From: Candidatus Helarchaeota ASGARD archaeon Hel_GB_A
GTDB lineage: Archaea > Asgardarchaeota > Lokiarchaeia > Helarchaeales > HEL-GB-A
Assembly: GCA_005191415.1 (NCBI GenBank)
Contig: SUPS01000005.1
Location: 1-39,556 of the forward strand
Direction: 5' to 3'
DNA: 39,556 nucleotides
The notes beneath the pieces were generated by a model. The model was given only the letters and a program-made list of their open reading frames with translations, was not told where the DNA came from and did not search any database. Positions 3,101-39,118 of the stretch are shown in pieces (positions within the stretch are counted from its first letter, which is position 1; every line of letters begins with the position of its first letter). The position numbers were made by a program, and so were the translations under genes.

Positions 3101-6100
3101 TCAATCAACTGGCCTGACCTTTCCAGCCTCTGGTTGATATATAAGCCCTCGCGCAATTAATTGCTCAATTGCCCGCTCCATAAATGACCGCTGGAGGTTA
3201 ATTCGTTCCCCTTCTTCTAAAATGTCTTCTATTGGTACAGCTTCACCCCGCTGACTTACCAAATCTCGAATGAGATCATGTAATGCTTCTAACCGATCTC
3301 GTTGCGTCTTCGATTGTCCGGTATATATTATATCGATATCCGACATGCCTGTTTCGCGATCTGTTCCCACTTGACGTAATGAATACTCCAGTAACCGAAT
3401 AGCAGCTTCTGCATCTTCGATAGTCGCTTCATTTCGTAAAGCCATACGCGCATGTGCTTGAGTTAAGCGAATAAGTGCCCCTAATTGACGAGCTGTAATT
3501 GGAACGGGTGCATCTTGTCTTTCACCAGCACTACGTTTTTCCACGTAAAAACTTTTTAACCGCGCTGCCGCTTCTGGGGAGAGAACAGGAAAACATGTTC
3601 TTCTCGCGTAATGAATATATTTTCGTAGGAGTTCCGCTTCAATAGGTGGCTCAACCTCCTCTGTAATGCTCTGGATAATTACATCTGCCATTTGACTATC
3701 TCTTTCCGCTTCGGGACGATCTCGAAGGATAAAAATTAAATCAAATCGTGAGAGTATTGTAACTGGCAGACGTTTAATATTCTCAGCTACTGTTTTATAT
3801 TCATCATATCTTCCAAAAGTAGGATTTGCTGCTGCAAGAATGGACGTTCTTGCATTTAATGTCGCTACAATTCCAGCTTTGGCGATACTTATCGTATTTT
3901 GTTCCATGGCTTCGTGAATTGCCACACGATCAGAAGGTTCCATTTTGTCGAATTCATCAAGGCAATTATGAACGAATATTCCATTACTAAGGTAGTTATG
4001 ATTCATAGGAACATACAAATCATACACAAATCCATCATATTTTCTATAATTAATCCTTACAATCTGATCCAAGAAGAAATCTCGATTAATTATTAAATCC
4101 ATTTTCTGTAAAATCTTTTTATCTATCAATGGCAATAATTTTTCTCTTATTTTGAGCAGCTGTAACCTTGATGGTTGATATTTTTTATTTTTATATGCAT
4201 AAAGGGTACTCCAAATTCCTTTTTCCAATAAAATGGACTTATTCGTTGATGCAACAATTTGATTACATAATTCAGATACTAAATTCGCAGGTAATTTATC
4301 GCTAAATGACGAAACAAAGTGCTTTCTCTTTGGTATTATTTTCAGCTTTACACTGAAGTCTTTAATAGCCTCCAAAAGTAGTCGTATATCTTCCCTACCA
4401 GTTATTCGGATAGCATTGATATTTCCTAATTTAATTAATTTAGCATAACAGTTGAATCTCCTTAAAGCGAGCATAAAGGTTCTATCATTTGATTCATCAT
4501 TAGAGAGGTGGAAATTAATTTCTATGGTTTCGTATGTCTTATCAGCTTTCCTTCCCTTTTTAATTGAAAGACATCCGTCAGAATCAAAACAGCCTGCAAT
4601 GAATGCACTTAATGATTTATTTGGTAACTTTAGGAGGTTTTTAAGATTTTTCTCTATTAAATAATTATAAATATACGCTAAAAGATTTGAACCTACATAT
4701 AAAATAACACTTTTACTCGTAACTTTCATATTTTTTATAACACTAACAGTCTCTCTTTCGTATTCATTTAATTTTTTGGATGAAAATTGTTCGAATGTAT
4801 TTTTAAGCTGGTCTATTTGAGCTTTGTTTTTCAATGATTGATAGATATGAATAAAGGATCTTCTATCACTTGTTTTGACCATACCATCTCCATAAATAAA
4901 TCCAAGAAAATAAGCCATGTCTGGTGTTATTTTATTTACTTTTAATCGTTCCCCAGAAGCCTTCCTACCAAACTTTAGACACTTTTCCCTCCATTTCTGA
5001 TAAATCCCAAAACTTTTCAGAATTTCCTTGAATTGACCAAGTTTAATTTGACTTCTGCCTGAAAGAAAATCTCTACTAACTTTAAATTTTCTATTAAATT
5101 CAGCAAATGTCTTGAAATGTTTTAATACTTCTTTTCGTAAATCCTGTTTCTCTTCTGCATTAAGAATAACAAGCCAATCATCAGGGATAATATCTAAAAT
5201 GTAAATATCATCATGACGTTCTGGAATTTTTAATGGTGCAACGACATACTCCCCAATTTTAAAATTTTTCGCTGCTTTCCATTCTAATGAATTCCCATCA
5301 ACAATTTTATGCTCAGGAGTAAGTCTTATTTTAAAACCGGATTTAAATTCAATCTCTATTATATCCCCATTATAATATTTTCGCCTTATACGTGAGGAAT
5401 TCGAAGGAATATTCTGAAAATTTGAATTTAACGATACTACCTCGGTGTCTAACTCACATAGTTCGATTTGTTCGCCTCTGGAGTGGGCTATGTATCTTTT
5501 CTGATTATTAAATAAGTTCTCAATTTTCTCCAAACCATTATCTGTAAGCACTCTTGATTCGCCACATAAACACGCAATTCCCCGATCGGCCAAGACTAAT
5601 GCTCCTGCTTCTAGTGTAAAATCCCCTGTTTCTTTATCTCGCAAAACAGCAGCTGTTAACCCAACAGCAGTTGTACCTTTCCCACTTGTATAAAGTCCTC
5701 GTGGCGCGATTTTGGATACATATTGTAATAACATCGATTTCCCAGTCCCTGGATCACCTACCAACAGAACATGCGACTCACCCCGAAACTTTGTACCATC
5801 TTTCTGTTGTCGCGATACTCCTCCAAAGAGCTGAAGTGCAATAGCTTCCTTGATATTTTCATTTCCGTACATTGTAGGGGCAATAGAATGAATGATCTTT
5901 CGATGAACCCATTCATCTTTTGCAAGTTCTTTAATTCTTTTCTCTTCCTCTGGTGTAATTTCAAGACGTTCTGTATCAATTTCAGAAGTATCTAGACTAT
6001 TTACTTCAAGAAATACATGAAATGTTTTTAAACTACCTCGTTGCCCCATATCACGTGCCGAATATAAAATTCCAACTGCTGTAATTCGGTTTCCTGGTCG

Positions 6101-6760
6101 AACGGTATCAACTAAATCCTCTTTGAGATAAGCATCTAAGGATCGTGGAAGCTGCCCTGCAGGGAGTTCTTCAGGTTTTTCTTGAATTCGAATCTTCTGC
6201 CAATCAATAAAAATTGATTTCTGAGGAAGAAACTCAAATGGACCTTTTTGATTACAGTTTGGACACTGATAAGGTTTTGTAAAAGCATCTCCTTGAGGGA
6301 TTTCAATATCAATATCTTCACATCCACGCCGTCGACAGCGAAATACCCCTACGATCAATTGCGGCTTTACCTCACTTGCTCTTGTCAAAATTCCATTGAC
6401 AGAAATGAGTTTTCCAATGTGTTCAGCTCTTATTTTTCGTAGATGAATTCGATGATTTTCGGGTAAATTTACGAAACGCGCATGAAAAGTATGTCGGGCA
6501 TAATCTTCTGCTTCGATTACCATTACATTCCGTATGGCTTCTGCGGCTGCCTCGATACACTCGAGCGGCGATTGTAGCGTGCGTTCAGCAAGTGTAGGGT
6601 CAAAATTAAATAAATCATCGAAATTAATTTCTAAAGAGCGCTCACCTCGCATAGGCATCTGTTCAATTTTCTCTCGGTATTTTATATGCCCATCTTCTGT
6701 CATAAACTCCTTGAAAAAAGTTACGTACCGCGCAATCGGATCAAAATCATCATTTGCCAT
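3101..6760 (-). CDS. mcm: Replicative DNA helicase MCM, intein-containing precursor
   Basis: The hexameric replicative helicase that unwinds DNA ahead of the fork. The 1219-residue precursor has an N-terminal OB/zinc region (Cys142, Cys147, Cys166, Cys169), Walker A GDPGTGKS (335-342), an intein at 397-932, then Walker B CLDEFD (933-938), sensor 1 AAANP (976-980), arginine finger LSRFD (1003-1007) and a C-terminal winged-helix-like region (about 1155-1219). Removing the intein gives a 683-residue MCM of normal archaeal length with an uninterrupted ADRGIACLDEFDKM segment. The ATG at 6760 has AGGGTAG upstream. The gene follows GINS23 on the same strand after 200 bp. TATA-like sequences on the minus strand near 6789 and 6822 suggest its own promoter. 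Function is certain; dependence of activity on splicing follows from the Walker B interruption. Confidence 0.97.
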   Translation of the reverse strand: MANDDFDPIARYVTFFKEFMTEDGHIKYREKIEQMPMRGERSLEINFDDLFNFDPTLAERTLQSPLECIEAAAEAIRNVMVIEAEDYARHTFHARFVNLPENHRIHLRKIRAEHIGKLISVNGILTRASEVKPQLIVGVFRCRRRGCEDIDIEIPQGDAFTKPYQCPNCNQKGPFEFLPQKSIFIDWQKIRIQEKPEELPAGQLPRSLDAYLKEDLVDTVRPGNRITAVGILYSARDMGQRGSLKTFHVFLEVNSLDTSEIDTERLEITPEEEKRIKELAKDEWVHRKIIHSIAPTMYGNENIKEAIALQLFGGVSRQQKDGTKFRGESHVLLVGDPGTGKSMLLQYVSKIAPRGLYTSGKGTTAVGLTAAVLRDKETGDFTLEAGALVLADRGIACLCGESRVLTDNGLEKIENLFNNQKRYIAHSRGEQIELCELDTEVVSLNSNFQNIPSNSSRIRRKYYNGDIIEIEFKSGFKIRLTPEHKIVDGNSLEWKAAKNFKIGEYVVAPLKIPERHDDIYILDIIPDDWLVILNAEEKQDLRKEVLKHFKTFAEFNRKFKVSRDFLSGRSQIKLGQFKEILKSFGIYQKWREKCLKFGRKASGERLKVNKITPDMAYFLGFIYGDGMVKTSDRRSFIHIYQSLKNKAQIDQLKNTFEQFSSKKLNEYERETVSVIKNMKVTSKSVILYVGSNLLAYIYNYLIEKNLKNLLKLPNKSLSAFIAGCFDSDGCLSIKKGRKADKTYETIEINFHLSNDESNDRTFMLALRRFNCYAKLIKLGNINAIRITGREDIRLLLEAIKDFSVKLKIIPKRKHFVSSFSDKLPANLVSELCNQIVASTNKSILLEKGIWSTLYAYKNKKYQPSRLQLLKIREKLLPLIDKKILQKMDLIINRDFFLDQIVRINYRKYDGFVYDLYVPMNHNYLSNGIFVHNCLDEFDKMEPSDRVAIHEAMEQNTISIAKAGIVATLNARTSILAAANPTFGRYDEYKTVAENIKRLPVTILSRFDLIFILRDRPEAERDSQMADVIIQSITEEVEPPIEAELLRKYIHYARRTCFPVLSPEAAARLKSFYVEKRSAGERQDAPVPITARQLGALIRLTQAHARMALRNEATIEDAEAAIRLLEYSLRQVGTDRETGMSDIDIIYTGQSKTQRDRLEALHDLIRDLVSQRGEAVPIEDILEEGERINLQRSFMERAIEQLIARGLIYQPEAGKVRPVD
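3965..5572 (-). other. Intein with LAGLIDADG homing endonuclease, inside MCM Walker B
   Basis: A 536-residue intein spanning MCM precursor residues 397-932. Block A begins at Cys397 (CLCGESRVLT). Block B has TPEHKIV with the usual Thr and His (481-487). Two LAGLIDADG-type endonuclease motifs are visible, LGFIYGDGMV (619-628) and IAGCFDSDGCLSI (721-733), each with an acidic residue in place. The C-terminal splice block reads YDLYVPMNHNYLSNGIFVHN, with penultimate His931 and terminal Asn932, followed by Cys933 as the +1 nucleophile. All splicing residues are therefore present and the endonuclease keeps both acidic motifs, so both activities look intact. MCM/CDC21 genes are known intein hosts; which named insertion allele this is was not checked. 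Confidence 0.95.
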
Positions 6761-9435: not shown

Positions 9436-10383
9436 TTATCGGCTGGTTCTTCTTTTATGACTAAAGTCAAGTTCAAGTGATTTTGGATGCTCTACTTGAA
9501 TACGTTTAATTTCTTTTACCATTGCTACTTTTAATTCTTGATCTGAGGGAATTACGTGCTGTGCTTGAGGCGAAGTAAATGCTTCAACCTTCTTATTTAG
9601 CGAATTAGATATATACTCATAAAATTGTTCTATTAATGGGTCTGGTTTAGCTTTTTGCTTAATTTTTTGTGCTACTAATTTCGCGGTCTTTTCAAATATA
9701 TCTAGGCGTTCAAGGAGTGCTTTTCGGTATTCCGCTTTTAGAATTACTGAAATTGCTGCGTCGTAAGCTTTTCCACGTGCTTGAGGATCGGGAATGGAAA
9801 AAACATAAACCAGACCAATTCCATTGGGAAAAGGAAGTACTGATGAAGTATCTAATAAAGTACTGGCATTTTCAAATCCCGCACTTAAAATTAATAAAGA
9901 TTTCGCAGCGATTTCAAAGATTTTCTTCTCAGATAACGATTTTGGCATCCAACTAACTGCCCCTAGTCCTAAATCCCCTGCTTTAGAAAAAACAACAGCA
10001 ATAATTCGTTCATCTTCTGGGATTTTTGGTTTAGAAGGAGTTGGTTGTAGTGCTTCAAGAAGAAGACTCCCATAATCACGCGTTATTTGCCCAAATTTCT
10101 TTAATACAAAATCTTCATGGGTATTTGTGATACAAACGATAAATGCCTCTGTTGAGATTTTGTAGATATAAAGGAAATAATTTGAATTAGGCAAATCTTG
10201 TTTGATATAATGATTGATCGGGATAGATGCATATTGCTTGACTATTTTTGAGATTAGGGCATGCGAATTTTCTGAAAAATTAGACGCAATAAAGCTACCA
10301 TCTGCACGTAATATACCTATATTTGTGGGATGTAGTGTGTTGAGGTCATTTGCTATATTATACACAACCGATTTTAATTCCAT
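9436..10383 (-). CDS. Roadblock-like plus longin-like domain protein
   Basis: Probably a regulator or scaffold for small GTPases. Residues about 1-110 look like a roadblock/LC7 (profilin-like) domain: GILRADGSFIASNF strand-turn-strand, then a helix, then YFLYIYKISTEAFIVCITN. Residues about 125-245 look like a longin-type domain: IIAVVFSKAGDLGLGAVSWMP, a helix KIFEIAAKSLLILSAG, and LPFPNGIGLVYVFSIPDPQARGKAYDAAISV, a pattern recalling longin-like proteins common in Asgard archaea. The C-terminal 70 residues are helical and charged, ending in RRTSR. The ATG at 10383 has AGGAG upstream at 12 nt. It is divergent from the aro cluster. The fold calls rest on pattern and length, not on a search, and the partner GTPase is unknown. 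Confidence 0.55.
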   Translation of the reverse strand: MELKSVVYNIANDLNTLHPTNIGILRADGSFIASNFSENSHALISKIVKQYASIPINHYIKQDLPNSNYFLYIYKISTEAFIVCITNTHEDFVLKKFGQITRDYGSLLLEALQPTPSKPKIPEDERIIAVVFSKAGDLGLGAVSWMPKSLSEKKIFEIAAKSLLILSAGFENASTLLDTSSVLPFPNGIGLVYVFSIPDPQARGKAYDAAISVILKAEYRKALLERLDIFEKTAKLVAQKIKQKAKPDPLIEQFYEYISNSLNKKVEAFTSPQAQHVIPSDQELKVAMVKEIKRIQVEHPKSLELDFSHKRRTSR

Positions 10384-14787: not shown

Positions 14788-14856
14788 CTATGATTCATCA
14801 AAAAGCCATGGCGTAAAAAGTTAGACACAAGAGACAAAATATTGGAGAAAATAAAA

Positions 14857-15975
14857 ATGCTGAGAAATGTGATTATATTCAAGGAGAAAGAAGTAATCTA
14901 CGCTAGAGAATATGGAAAATCGCTGCCTGATGAAACTCTTTACCCCTTAATTGAATCTCTGAAAGATTATTTAAGAAATTTTGCCGTTGATATCGTTGAT
15001 TTTATGCATGTTATTAATTTTAAAATTTGCTACGCTACAAATCGCGAACACAATTTATTATTCATTTTAGTCTGCGATCCTACAGATAAAGATGATTCTA
15101 TTCGCGATGAAATCGAGTACATTCGACATAAATTCCTCAATAAATTCACAGAGCCTCTTTCTCAAGGAATTACAGACCCTAATGCGTATAAAGAAATAGA
15201 AAAAGATGTCAAAATTAGTAAAAGTGAGTTACGACCAAAAATTTCACTTGTTGGATTTAGCGGAGTTGGTAAGACAACAATTACTAAATTGATTAAGGAA
15301 GAAGAAATCCCAACACGCCATATACCAACTATTACTGGCTATATATCCGAGATTACAGTTGGTGATTTTGAAATGTACCTTTGGGACTTAGCGGGTCAAG
15401 TTAGATATGCCGAAGTATGGGCACAATTTATGAGAGGTTCCGATGTTATTATACTAATCGTTGATTCAACAGAGCAAAATGTATATGAATCCCGTTTTTT
15501 CATTGAACTATGCCGTAAAGAAGCACCTTATGCGCGCGTTGCTGTTATTGCAAATAAACAAGATCTACCAGGTGCGCTCTCTCCCGAACAAATTAGTGAT
15601 ATTCTAGATTGCGGTATTTATGGTTACAAAGTAACTCCTCTTGTTGCAATCGATGTTAAAAACAGAATCCCAGCCTTGAAAGTAATGGCAGAAACTGCCG
15701 CAACAACTGCTAAAACCTTGGCTGAATTTCAGACACTAGATGATATAAAGGGTATGTTAACTCAAGTTCCAATTGCAATTGAGAAAGGATATTTAAAAGA
15801 GGCTGCAAAAATTTTAGATGAAATCGCCTATCTCGCTAACCTTAGAGGTGATCCTGCGAGAGCAGAAAAATACGCCAGCTATGCAGCTTATATCCGAAGC
15901 CAAAACAAAACAATTGACCAAAAAATGAAACTCGTTTATAAGGCGATTGAAGAGAAACAACAGGAATATTTCTAA
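14857..15975 (+). CDS. Longin-domain Arf/Gtr-like small GTPase
   Basis: A eukaryote-like small GTPase of Asgard type. Residues about 1-110 form a longin-like domain (LRNVIIFKEKEVIYAREYG strand pair, helix TLYPLIESLKDYL, strands FKICYAT and LLFILVCD). The G domain follows: G1 GFSGVGKT (133-140), switch I HIPTITGY, G3 WDLAGQ (176-181) and G4 NKQD (233-236). WDLAGQ/NKQD and the PT switch I point to the Arf/Rag/Gtr side of the Ras superfamily. The C-terminal 80 residues are helical and TPR-like (LKEAAKILDEIAYLANLRGDPARAEKYA). No lipidation motif is seen. I chose ATG 14857 because GGAG lies 9 nt upstream; a TTG 15 nt earlier is in frame. It lies between aroK and aroA; a link to aromatic metabolism is unproven. 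Confidence 0.85.
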   Translation: MLRNVIIFKEKEVIYAREYGKSLPDETLYPLIESLKDYLRNFAVDIVDFMHVINFKICYATNREHNLLFILVCDPTDKDDSIRDEIEYIRHKFLNKFTEPLSQGITDPNAYKEIEKDVKISKSELRPKISLVGFSGVGKTTITKLIKEEEIPTRHIPTITGYISEITVGDFEMYLWDLAGQVRYAEVWAQFMRGSDVIILIVDSTEQNVYESRFFIELCRKEAPYARVAVIANKQDLPGALSPEQISDILDCGIYGYKVTPLVAIDVKNRIPALKVMAETAATTAKTLAEFQTLDDIKGMLTQVPIAIEKGYLKEAAKILDEIAYLANLRGDPARAEKYASYAAYIRSQNKTIDQKMKLVYKAIEEKQQEYF

Positions 15976-30586: not shown

Positions 30587-30679
30587 TTTAAATACGATTT
30601 AGATTACTACTAAATTCTAAACAAAAACCATTTCTATAGTTTGTTAGGTTCATACAGAAAAAATTGGGTGTTCATTTTT

Positions 30680-33124
30680 ATGAAACACAAGAATTTAACT
30701 GGGATCTGGTTACTTATAATAGTTTTGACAGTAATTTTTGTTAGCACTCATAAAATTGAGGCAGAAAGTGGAACCGATTCACCAAATTATCAATTTATAG
30801 GTAATTATAATGGTAATGCCTCAGTACTCTTCTTTCTAGATAGTGGAAGTTCAGGATCTATTAATTTTGATAGCTATTTCACGAATACCTATGAACCTAC
30901 TTTAAATAATTCCCAGGATCTAATCTTTACTGCAAATAGTATTGAAATTACTGCTAATCAAATGACAAATGGGAGTGGAACTTACATTATTGGTTCCAAT
31001 GAAACCGCAAAGGAGAATATTTCCAGTGCATATAAAGTTGCTCAACAATTTTCAATTCCCCATTTATCTACTATTTCTACCATATCGCTTTATCTTGAAT
31101 ATAATTTCACTGATTATTATCATTTCAAAGTAAAAATCACAGAAGAAGATCTGAATACGACCATAGAGGAGCTTTATACTGAAGAATATGGAGGATCTTA
31201 TTCAGGATGGACTCCCTATACGTTCCAGAATAATTTCTTAGAGCCAGGGAAAACCTATTATATAGTTTTTGAAGTGGTAAATATGAGTTTTTTCAATACC
31301 GAAACTAATCTTGTAGAAAATAATTTTTGGAAAGCAGAACTACACAACAGTTCAATATACGATAAAGGTAGTACCTTCATATTCGATGGGGCTAATTGGA
31401 ATCCGATTCAGAATGATTCTTGGAGAGATATGTTGTGTTATTTTGATTATACCATTTTGGTAGATCCCACCCAAGCCAATCTTCGATTGTATTTAAACAA
31501 CACGTTATGTGAGTATACAAAAAGAAAATCACTTTTGGATACTGATAATGGATATGAAGTGTATTATACAGCTTATTTTCAAACAAAACCAACAGGTCCC
31601 ATAAATGTAACTATCCTTTTAAATACCACCATTGAATTTATGAGTATAACTGTAGATTTTCGATATATTTACATAGTACCAGCTATAACAGGGTGGTTTA
31701 CCGCTTCACCTGACAAGATTAACTGGACACTAATTTATTCTTATCCATACGTGGCTGATATTCTCTCTTTTTCCGATGCAATGTTCGCATATGAACTTGA
31801 TTGGGATTATTATGAATTTAGCGATGACAATACTGTGGTTAATAATTTATATGTTGGTCCTATCAAGTTTTATGGGTTTTCAGGTTACGCTGCATTTCCA
31901 CATTCCATTTCCACGTTTCAGCGGGGGAACGTCACTGGAAAATTCACGTCGCCTAATTACTGCAATATCATCATCCCTAAAGTAAAGATTAATTCAGAAT
32001 TTCAAACAACCAGCAAATTTGAGCTGGAACAAACCGTAAGATTAGAGGCATCTATAAAAGACAGAGAGGGCAACCTTATTTCAGGAGGGAAGGGTTTAAT
32101 TAATTTTACATCCCCTTCAGGTCAGACATTATCTTTTTCAAATCTCACATCGATCAATGGAACTATTATTACGGATGAATTCTACCTAGGTAATAATTTT
32201 GAAACAGGCCTTTATACAGTTTCGGTCTTTTGGACAAACGGAAGGGAGGTGGGGTGCTATATATTTCAAATGGAAGTTTCTGAAGTCCCTGCAGCCCCTT
32301 CCAATTTCCTCCTCTACTTACTAATAGGAATTACCATTTTACTCGCGACAATTTCGAGCTTGTTAATCCTTAAGACGAAGGGTATTTTATGGGGAAAAGG
32401 TCCCATAAACATTTTTATTAGCCATAAGGCAGAAGATTATGAACCCTACAAGGTAAAAGAGATCTCCGAACATCTACAAAAGAAAAAAGAAGTGGGAACC
32501 GCCTTTTATTTTGAAGAACATCTTGTGGGTAATATCGATGATTGGATGAAAGAAACAATTCCCATTAGTCAAATTCTACTATTTATTGCGACGAAGCAAT
32601 CCATAAATTCAAGAGACTGCCAATACGAGATTAAATGGGCAAAAGAGGCAGGAATAGACATTATTCCAATTAAGGGAACTGATCTCACATGGGATGATTT
32701 AAATCCACTTGGTCTAGACCGCCAAAAAGGTATTCCATTCCCTGAAAATAGGGAAGAATTCATTACATTTTTAAATGATCTTCATTACTATGTCAAGAAG
32801 TTCAAACAAGAAATGGATGTAGTCTATGTAGTATTAAGTAAATCGCCGGTCTCTGATTTAAATCTAATTCAATTAGAAACTAACCTAAGCCCAGAAAAAA
32901 TATGGAGATTTTCAAAAACACTAATTCAATTGAAAAAACTCAAGGGTGTCTGGACAAAAGATAAAAAAGAGTTCCTACGAGAAGATGAAGTGATAAACCG
33001 AATAAATCTTCTTAAAAAACTCGGAAAAATAAAAGATTTTAATCAAATAAGAGATGCACTACGAATCCATGAAGAATATCTCGAAATCTTTAATGAAATT
33101 TTAAAATCTCAAATGGAAGATTAA
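30680..33124 (+). CDS. Single-pass surface receptor with cytoplasmic TIR domain
   Basis: Predicted type I membrane protein of 814 residues. A signal peptide (1-29: basic MKHK, then LTGIWLLIIVLTVIFVS) leads into an ectodomain of about 510 residues. The ectodomain has 18 N-x-S/T sequons and ends in an Ig-like or macroglobulin-like module (about 433-535). One membrane helix follows (543-565), then a TIR domain (about 575-709): INIFISHKAEDYEPYKVKEISEHL, the helix GNIDDWMKETIPISQILLFIAT, and SRDCQYEIKWAKEAG with Glu650 at the NADase catalytic position. The last 100 residues look like a winged helix plus helices. ATG 30680 gives the signal peptide; a TTG 39 nt upstream is in frame. The domain layout is directly visible; sensing and NAD cleavage are inference. 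Confidence 0.82.
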   Translation: MKHKNLTGIWLLIIVLTVIFVSTHKIEAESGTDSPNYQFIGNYNGNASVLFFLDSGSSGSINFDSYFTNTYEPTLNNSQDLIFTANSIEITANQMTNGSGTYIIGSNETAKENISSAYKVAQQFSIPHLSTISTISLYLEYNFTDYYHFKVKITEEDLNTTIEELYTEEYGGSYSGWTPYTFQNNFLEPGKTYYIVFEVVNMSFFNTETNLVENNFWKAELHNSSIYDKGSTFIFDGANWNPIQNDSWRDMLCYFDYTILVDPTQANLRLYLNNTLCEYTKRKSLLDTDNGYEVYYTAYFQTKPTGPINVTILLNTTIEFMSITVDFRYIYIVPAITGWFTASPDKINWTLIYSYPYVADILSFSDAMFAYELDWDYYEFSDDNTVVNNLYVGPIKFYGFSGYAAFPHSISTFQRGNVTGKFTSPNYCNIIIPKVKINSEFQTTSKFELEQTVRLEASIKDREGNLISGGKGLINFTSPSGQTLSFSNLTSINGTIITDEFYLGNNFETGLYTVSVFWTNGREVGCYIFQMEVSEVPAAPSNFLLYLLIGITILLATISSLLILKTKGILWGKGPINIFISHKAEDYEPYKVKEISEHLQKKKEVGTAFYFEEHLVGNIDDWMKETIPISQILLFIATKQSINSRDCQYEIKWAKEAGIDIIPIKGTDLTWDDLNPLGLDRQKGIPFPENREEFITFLNDLHYYVKKFKQEMDVVYVVLSKSPVSDLNLIQLETNLSPEKIWRFSKTLIQLKKLKGVWTKDKKEFLREDEVINRINLLKKLGKIKDFNQIRDALRIHEEYLEIFNEILKSQMED

Positions 33125-37233: not shown

Positions 37234-38523
37234 TTGAAAGAAATTGCCCTAATCCCACGTTTCTCATCGAAAAATTGGTATAGCTTCGCCCCTTTACTCG
37301 CCAGTTTAGAGAATACAAGCATTATACAAAATCTCGATATATGTATCCCCCAAAAATGGAATGATTCAATTCTTAAAAACATAATAACAAAATATAATCT
37401 GATAATCTTTGCATATTCCTTCTATACTCATGAAACGCCAAAAATTTTTGCGGAACTTCAACATATTAAGGAAAAATTTTCCCTTTCCAAACTAATTTTT
37501 ATTGCAGGTGGACCACACCCCTCTGGAAATCCACAACAAACCCTTCGCTTAGGCTTTGATATTGTAGTAAAAGGTGAAGGCGAGCGAATCTTTCCAGAAT
37601 TATTAGACTATCTCCTAAAACATCGTAATTTAGAAGATATGAACGGAATTTTTTATCGGGAAAATGATCGCTTATGTATCTCAGAATCAGCTCCATTACT
37701 CAATTTAGATGAGTATCCCACCTTTTCTCAAAGATTTAATTTATATCCTCCAATAGAAATTACTCGCGGATGTCCCTTTGGATGTAAATATTGCGAAGTT
37801 TCATATCTTTTTGGAAGACAAATTCGTCATAGAGGGATTGAAACAATCCTAAAAATTGTGAAGGCTTACCAAAAAATATTTGCGGGAAAGCGAAGTACTG
37901 ATATTCGATTTATATCTCCTAACGCGCTGGCTTATGGCTCTCGCGATGGAAGATCTCCAAATTACTCTAAAATAGTTAAATTATTACAAAATATTGCAAA
38001 ATTAGACAATATCAGAATCTTTTTTGCTACTTTTCCTTCTGAAACTCGCCCTGAATTTATTAAAGAATCGATCTTACGAGAAATCGTTCCTTATCTTTCT
38101 AATAAGTATATTGCTTTTGGAGCACAATCTGGGTCTGATGCCATTCTCCAACAAATTGGACGCCAACACAATGTCGAAGATATTAGGAATGCAGTAACCA
38201 CTATTTTAGATGTGGGTTTAATACCTCTCGTTGATTTCATTTTAGGCTTACCTGGGGAGAAAATCGAAGATCAATACCAAACTCTCGACCTTATTAGAGA
38301 ATTGATTCAAAATAAAGCTGAAATTCGAATTCATTATTTTATGCCTCTTGCAGGAACTCCTTTTGAAACCGCCTCTCCAGTTCCTATCGACCCTACTATC
38401 TTATCAGAGCTTGGAAGATTTGCAAAGAAAGGATATTTACAGGGTAATCTTGATGTACAGATAAAGAATTCGAACCAAATCGTTAAATTTCAACAATTTC
38501 TCGAAAAAGAAGGATTCATTTAA
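37234..38523 (+). CDS. B12-binding-domain radical SAM protein
   Basis: An N-terminal cobalamin-binding-like domain (about 1-135) has LIIFAYSFYTHETPKIFAEL, FIAGGPHPSGNPQQTL and DIVVKGEGERIFPELL. The radical SAM core follows with ITRGCPFGCKYCEVSYLFG (Cys180, Cys184, Cys187). Later are ISPNALAYGSRDGR, FGAQSGSDAILQQIGRQHNVEDI, DFILGLPGEKIEDQ and HYFMPLAGTPF. The DxHxxG motif for base-off cobalamin is not seen. The layout resembles the uncharacterised archaeal MJ1487-type group (recalled, not searched). The start is TTG 37234; no in-frame ATG precedes the first strand. It overlaps the convergent proteasome gene by 8 bp. The substrate is unknown. Confidence 0.85.
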   Translation: MKEIALIPRFSSKNWYSFAPLLASLENTSIIQNLDICIPQKWNDSILKNIITKYNLIIFAYSFYTHETPKIFAELQHIKEKFSLSKLIFIAGGPHPSGNPQQTLRLGFDIVVKGEGERIFPELLDYLLKHRNLEDMNGIFYRENDRLCISESAPLLNLDEYPTFSQRFNLYPPIEITRGCPFGCKYCEVSYLFGRQIRHRGIETILKIVKAYQKIFAGKRSTDIRFISPNALAYGSRDGRSPNYSKIVKLLQNIAKLDNIRIFFATFPSETRPEFIKESILREIVPYLSNKYIAFGAQSGSDAILQQIGRQHNVEDIRNAVTTILDVGLIPLVDFILGLPGEKIEDQYQTLDLIRELIQNKAEIRIHYFMPLAGTPFETASPVPIDPTILSELGRFAKKGYLQGNLDVQIKNSNQIVKFQQFLEKEGFI

Positions 38524-39118
38524 TAGTTGCGGTAAACTCTTCTATTTTTGATTTTTGAATCGCAAGTATGTCGATTCCTTCCCCTGAAGAAGGGTCGCGC
38601 TCAGCTGCAGACCGGATTGCCCGAATCGCCAGATTCTTCCCATCTTCTGCCGTTAAAGAAGGAACATATTCATTTTCAAGCACGCCAATCGCAATTTCTG
38701 AACCACTTCCAATTGCAGCATAATCATCTTCGATAAGACTGCCAATTAAATCCAGGGCGAAAACCTTTGCCCCATCTTCATCAACGCCTGCAATAATTGA
38801 ATTGGTAAAATATGGAAAAATTCGCCTATTATATAAAATCGCTGAGGTTTGCTTTGCCGCCGCATCAACTGAAATTCTCTTCTTCTGTTCTAGTTCATAT
38901 AGCCTAAATAATGCACCTAATGTATCCTTCACGACTTGAAAATCTGATACTAACCCCGCGAATGCAATCCCAATATTTTCCGTAAGTTTAAAGACCTTCT
39001 TCACCGACTTACTCTGAACACCCCGTCCAAAAGTCAGTAACTTTTCAGATGCAAGAACTACTCCGTCTGCACAACGTATTCCAACAGTGGTCGCACCAGG
39101 TAAATAAAAATTTTCCAT
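38516..39118 (-). CDS. Proteasome beta-type subunit with Thr1 replaced by Ala
   Basis: A 200-residue 20S proteasome beta-family subunit. It lacks the N-terminal helix of alpha subunits and ends in the beta-like SAAERDPSSGEGIDILAIQK. Aligned without gaps to the Thermoplasma beta subunit, the mature N-terminus reads Gly8-Ala9-Thr10-Thr11-Val12-Gly13, so the nucleophile position (Thr1) is Ala9, codon GCG. The rest of the active site is kept: Glu25 (=Glu17), Lys41 (=Lys33), the GSGS loop (Ser129), and Asp and Ser in ERDPSS (=Asp166, Ser169). The eight-residue leader MENFYLPG is short. It is probably a non-catalytic structural subunit beside an active beta encoded elsewhere. ATG 39118 is preceded by GAGATAG. 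The fold is secure; inactivity is inference. Confidence 0.85.
   Translation of the reverse strand: MENFYLPGATTVGIRCADGVVLASEKLLTFGRGVQSKSVKKVFKLTENIGIAFAGLVSDFQVVKDTLGALFRLYELEQKKRISVDAAAKQTSAILYNRRIFPYFTNSIIAGVDEDGAKVFALDLIGSLIEDDYAAIGSGSEIAIGVLENEYVPSLTAEDGKNLAIRAIRSAAERDPSSGEGIDILAIQKSKIEEFTATIK

Follow-up and report, generated by a model that had tools for sequence, protein, structure and literature searches.

The proteasome beta gene and its surroundings

The window, i.e. the whole 39,556-nucleotide stretch of DNA analysed here, carries a proteasome beta subunit gene close to one of its ends, with the end of the contig 438 bases past the gene on its upstream side (Table 1). At its 3′ end the beta gene overlaps by 8 bases with the convergent gene for a radical SAM protein. 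The first residues of its open reading frame product are MENFYLPGATTVGIRCADGVVLASEK, and the N-terminus can be read as MENFYLPG followed by ATTVGIRCADGVVLASEKLLTF, where the first residue after MENFYLPG takes the place of the catalytic threonine. From here on, positions are given in the numbering of the mature subunit unless a residue of the window protein is meant, a slash in a sequence stands directly before position 1, and beta subunits are referred to as Thr1 or Ala1 types according to the residue found there. Other genes of the window are listed at the foot of the table.

Table 1. Coordinates of the Ala1 beta gene, its notable residues and other genes in the window
Feature	Position	Strand	Basis
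Proteasome beta subunit, Ala1 type (very probably non-catalytic, structural), 200 aa	38516..39118	-	ORF and PF00227
Residue 9, codon GCG, Ala; position 1 of mature numbering, place of the catalytic Thr	39092..39094	-	Sequence, alignment
Short N-terminal tail MENFYLPG	39095..39118	-	Sequence
Glu25, position 17	39044..39046	-	Orthologue alignment
Lys41, equivalent of Lys33	38996..38998	-	Sequence and orthologue alignment
Asp175, equivalent of Asp166	38594..38596	-	Sequence and orthologue alignment
B12-binding radical SAM protein, neighbour, not part of the beta gene	37234..38523	+	ORF, Pfam
MCM helicase gene interrupted by an intein, which has splicing and LAGLIDADG domains	3101-6760	-	
Weak Folliculin-like protein, typical of Asgard genomes	9436-10383	-	
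Arf/Roc/Ras-type GTPase, typical of Asgard genomes	14842-15975	+	
827-aa protein, TIR domain at about residues 591-681 and no other Pfam match; may act in signalling or defence	30641-33124	+	

The window protein scores 178 bits against the PF00227 model of Pfam (cut-off 22.4) and 224.0 bits against arc_protsome_B of NCBIfam (TIGR03634), exactly the cut-off of 224 for that family. Its AlphaFold2 model (mean pLDDT 90.9) has the proteasome beta fold. The best PDB match by sequence is 6z46_H (185 bits, with the next match at 141), and a Foldseek search with the model also returns 6z46 as best match (TM 0.95, 52% identity). Assignment as an alpha subunit was ruled out by the better score with the beta profile and by the missing alpha-type N-terminal helix segment (H0, ‘SPDGRxxQVEYA’), which is present in all three alpha-type genes of the same genome.

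A gapless alignment with active beta subunits sets the alanine at residue 9 against their Thr1, with Glu25 and Lys41 exactly in register with E17 and K33, and the equivalents of Glu17, Lys33, Gly47, Ser129, Asp166 and Ser169 are all kept. The substitution of Thr1 by alanine and the retention of the other active-site residues, both noted in the initial annotation, are therefore borne out. Catalytic threonine peptidases of the MEROPS T1 type have a Thr1 that is freed by autolysis; the window gene has GCG at this codon, and its position 1 is unable to be the nucleophile. Without Thr1 a beta subunit is capable neither of autolysis nor of peptidase activity, and since autolysis needs Thr1, the tail MENFYLPG is predicted from this chemistry to remain uncleaved.

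Conservation of the Ala1 type in Asgard archaea

Searches of the class (83 genomes) and of the phylum (227 genomes) found an orthologue in most genomes. Position 1 was read in 98 Asgard orthologues and is Ala in 95, Ser in two (L038 and L217), Gly in one (L125) and Thr in none. The comparison with related genomes that the initial annotation had proposed also shows all four alanine codons in use at this position. An error of sequencing or assembly would require only that a single codon be changed, from ACG to GCG, in an assembly of metagenome type, but alanine in 95 genomes, encoded in four ways, leaves this explanation with a practically negligible probability.

Other active-site residues are conserved as well. 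K33, G47 and D166 are each found in 98 of 98 Asgard orthologues, position 17 is Asp or Glu in every one of them, and Ala1 is preceded by a family motif ‘PG’. Given how widely Ala1 is shared, in Thermoproteota too, the retention of K33, D166 and G47 reflects structural constraint and not recency. In all 14 of the closest pairs computed dN is lower than dS, usually four-fold or more (dN/dS value pairs of 0.004/0.074, 0.012/0.236, 0.034/0.820 and 0.040/0.600, the weakest being 0.013/0.026), and the reading frame is open in nearly all orthologues. The Ala1 beta is under purifying selection.

All 27 genomes in which sequences of both types were read have a Thr1 beta alongside the Ala1 or Gly1 beta, including one (G178) in which the Thr1 copy is partial, cut by the contig end. 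The Ala1 beta was not found in the 58 genomes (families f11-f17) of the Asgard class to which genome G133 belongs, at a guess the Heimdallarchaeia, where there is one beta-like match per genome, with Thr1 where read. Being missing from one whole Asgard class, the Ala1 beta is therefore dispensable in some lineages. The single beta gene of G133's class is usually in tandem with an alpha gene.

Thermoproteota and the Saci0662 type

A Sulfolobus protein used as query in a contig scan gave 6 loci and was the entry point to Thermoproteota; with a profile of the Asgard proteins, a strong orthologue was found in nearly all of 151 genomes from the phylum of a Sulfolobales genome. Position 1 of the 45 Thermoproteota orthologues read is Ala in 39, Gly in four (two of which are one residue shorter), Ser in two and Thr in none, and the motif PG/ATT is common to many of them. 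Serine could in principle act as a nucleophile in the Ser1 orthologues of the two phyla (L038, L217, L154 and L201).

The solved structure closest to the window protein, 6z46, is that of Saci0662 in the 20S particle of Sulfolobus acidocaldarius. One Sulfolobus gene (L194) is near-identical to Saci0662, with two differences over the solved stretch, and reads LEELP/ATAIG, i.e. with Ala at position 1. Anjum et al. found that the alpha subunit Saci0613 forms a stable but inactive 28-mer with Saci0662, and that the second beta subunit, Saci0909, must be incorporated for activity, the S. acidocaldarius particle then being mixed and active (PMC4569737). That work used an N-terminally truncated form of Saci0662, whose inactivity is taken from one assay set; BLAST showed similarity of Saci0909 to yeast beta5 and of Saci0662 to yeast beta7 (PMC4569737).

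The residue next to Ala1 deserves attention here, since a threonine of Saci0662 was assigned as its T1 equivalent (PMC4569737), and the initial annotation had considered Thr10 of the window protein, at position 2, as an N-terminal nucleophile after processing. Threonine is present at position 2 here and in 47 of the 98 Asgard orthologues, with Gly at -1 in 90 of them. However, position 2 is Cys (26), Ala (14) or Val (10) in 50 of the 98, and Ser in one; moving the nucleophile by one residue puts K33 out of register, and the Saci0613/Saci0662 particles are inactive (PMC4569737). Thr10 as nucleophile is excluded as a rule for the family by this variability, and activity of the window protein by such a route is very improbable. 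Judged by the register to K33, the threonine named ‘T1’ in Saci0662 seems to lie at position 2 as well, and if so, the silence of this subunit follows from its sequence.

A single loss of Thr1 in archaea

A 68-row tree of archaeal beta subunits was built without residues 1-3. Thr1 and Ala1 types are parted in it by a single branch (100/99), and the Ala1 types of Asgard archaea and Thermoproteota are intermixed. Rooting with alpha subunits places the root within the Thr1 sequences and unites the Ala1 sequences in one clade (97/99), so the loss is the derived condition. Together, the single split and the alpha-rooted clade indicate that catalysis was lost once and then stayed lost. The alanine at position 1 was inherited within the Ala1 lineage, whose members occur in Thermoproteota and in the majority of Asgard classes. 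Barring transfer of the gene, the branching order would date the loss no later than the point where the sampled Asgard archaea and Thermoproteota diverged.

The initial annotation had taken the retention of the other active-site residues as a sign that catalysis was lost recently, which would also suit a gene in decay. This does not hold, as Ala1 is common to two phyla in one clade, dN is below dS in all the close pairs, and frames have stayed open; we consider a recent loss extremely improbable. The structural role that the same annotation had offered as its other reading, by analogy with the inactive beta subunits of eukaryotes, is supported: the type is ancient, under purifying selection and found beside a Thr1 beta where this was looked at, and Saci0662, the closest homologue that has been characterised, serves as structural beta in a proteasome with two betas.

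Other proteasome genes of the same genome

The search for a second beta gene with Thr1 that the initial annotation had suggested was carried out with PF00227 in the assembly that contains the window (3.84 Mb, with a completeness of 82.8%), and three were found. The assembly holds seven PF00227 genes, namely three alpha-type genes (contigs C132, C277 and C182), the Ala1 beta of the window and three Thr1 betas, which read HTG/TTTIGI (C280), KTG/TTTMGV (C17) and M/TTTIGL (C182, without propeptide). With three Thr1 genes the organism therefore has working beta subunits.

At C182:1482-2713 (loci L005 and L007) lies a second, divergent alpha-beta pair, in which the alpha gene, SPDGRIIQVEYAKEAVRRG, adjoins the Thr1 beta without propeptide. 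In the 82-row tree described below, this beta groups with the single beta of G133's class (95/91), and it also groups with a beta from G002, a genome of the same taxonomic order as the window's. The genome may thus hold a second type of proteasome.

The role of the Ala1 subunit

In the window gene position 1 is not Thr, the protein falls in the same clade as Saci0662, apart from the Thr1 betas, and the genome also encodes a Thr1 beta. In all probability the gene is orthologous to an ancient non-catalytic archaeal beta, the Saci0662 type, and a known kind of subunit, the Saci0662-type structural beta, thereby gains an Asgard member.

By analogy with Saci0662, the Ala1 beta would occupy places in the heptameric beta ring beside Thr1 subunits, and would supply contacts within the ring and to the alpha ring. 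With a short tail left uncleaved and no peptidase site of its own, it would set the number and the neighbourhood of active sites, giving a mixed ring with fewer sites. Because of the precedent of S. acidocaldarius, the one archaeon for which such assembly is known, where alpha and Saci0662 are silent and Saci0909 brings activity, we consider it highly probable that the Ala1 beta co-assembles with Thr1 subunits in this manner. The main rival to mixed rings is that the Ala1 beta forms separate 20S particles of its own, silent throughout, that serve in storage, as a chaperone-like device or as a decoy, in keeping with the stable 28-mer that Saci0613 and Saci0662 form alone in vitro (PMC4569737; 6z46). 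Yet a mixed particle with activity results when both S. acidocaldarius betas are present (PMC4569737), and we found no earlier case in which silent 20S cores serve a function in the cell, which makes separate particles unlikely.

Relationship to the inactive beta subunits of eukaryotes

For the human beta1-7 sequences, PDB entries served as confirmation. Of the seven yeast sequences, three were compared with the PDB by bit score: beta3 and beta5 agree with it exactly (243.5 and 293.8), and beta6 comes close (205.1 vs 203.8). In the 82-row tree, beta1, 2 and 5 fall with the Thr1 types and beta3, 4, 6 and 7 with the Ala1 types (100/98), and the same split is recovered after removal of beta4 and beta7 (100/99). 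Monophyly of the eukaryotic sequences is not rejected: holding them all together costs 11.9 log units with the full set (p-AU 0.27) and 7.3 log units without beta4 and beta7 (p-AU 0.335).

As constrained fast likelihood searches suffered from search noise (beta1 was put on the Ala1 side), placement branch by branch was used instead. Placed singly on the archaeal tree, beta1, 2 and 5 favour the Thr1 side by 9.5-18 log units, and for beta3, 4, 6 and 7 the two sides are within about 5 log units in the unmasked alignment. With active-site columns masked, beta3 leans to the Ala1 side by 3.4 and beta4 to the Thr1 side by 7.3, beta6 sits at the dividing branch, and beta7 favours neither side. A mere lack of activity does not draw sequences to the Ala1 clade, since alpha subunits, likewise inactive and on long branches, join the tree on its Thr1 side.

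It is conceivable, though on balance doubtful, that the eukaryotic division into catalytic (beta1, 2 and 5) and inactive subunits (beta3 and beta6, perhaps 4 and 7) goes back to a pair of archaeal genes, one Thr1 and one Ala1. The inactive eukaryotic betas would then, just as tentatively, not stem from a loss of activity inside eukaryotes. Inheritance from archaea must also account for the absence of the Ala1 gene from one Asgard class. The suggestion of the initial annotation that this subunit bears on the origin of mixed rings is thus a fair one, but a link by descent to the eukaryotic inactive betas is not confirmed by the topology tests.

The gene is not a broken gene in one Asgard archaeon but very probably part of an old, conserved two-beta proteasome in Asgard archaea and Thermoproteota, and mixed rings of active and inactive betas may predate eukaryotes. 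Like human cells, archaea appear to combine active with inactive proteasome subunits. A search of the accessible literature yielded no description of an inactive Asgard beta subunit and no proposal of an archaeal origin for the eukaryotic inactive betas, both of them weak negatives; nor did it yield an earlier description of the breadth of the Ala1 beta across the two phyla.

Comparison with known systems

The archaeal catalytic beta (arc_protsome_B, e.g. PsmB of T. acidophilum and A. fulgidus) resembles the window beta in fold, length and all active-site residues except Thr1, which the window beta lacks, and the two belong to separate clades (100/99).

Among eukaryotic proteins, beta3 (PSMB3) and beta6 (PSMB1) are the top matches of the predicted fold. 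Like the window beta they are without Thr1 (Gly at position 1 after ‘NG’), keep K33 and an acidic residue at position 17 (D17 in their case), have a short N-terminal tail and are placed by the tree with the Ala1 types, a side that the likelihood tests of placement on the archaeal tree do not confirm. They differ from it in sequence, with only about 28-31% identity, and in having seven fixed ring places with dedicated chaperones.

Saci0662 differs in being a Sulfolobales protein with another tail in place of the ‘FYLPG’ of the Asgard window beta, and in its genomic setting, as S. acidocaldarius has three 20S genes (one alpha and two beta) whereas the window genome has three Thr1 beta and three alpha-type genes beside the Ala1 beta. 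It is nevertheless the best match of the window beta both in sequence and in fold, belongs to the same clade and, as in the window genome, is paired with a separate Thr1 beta.
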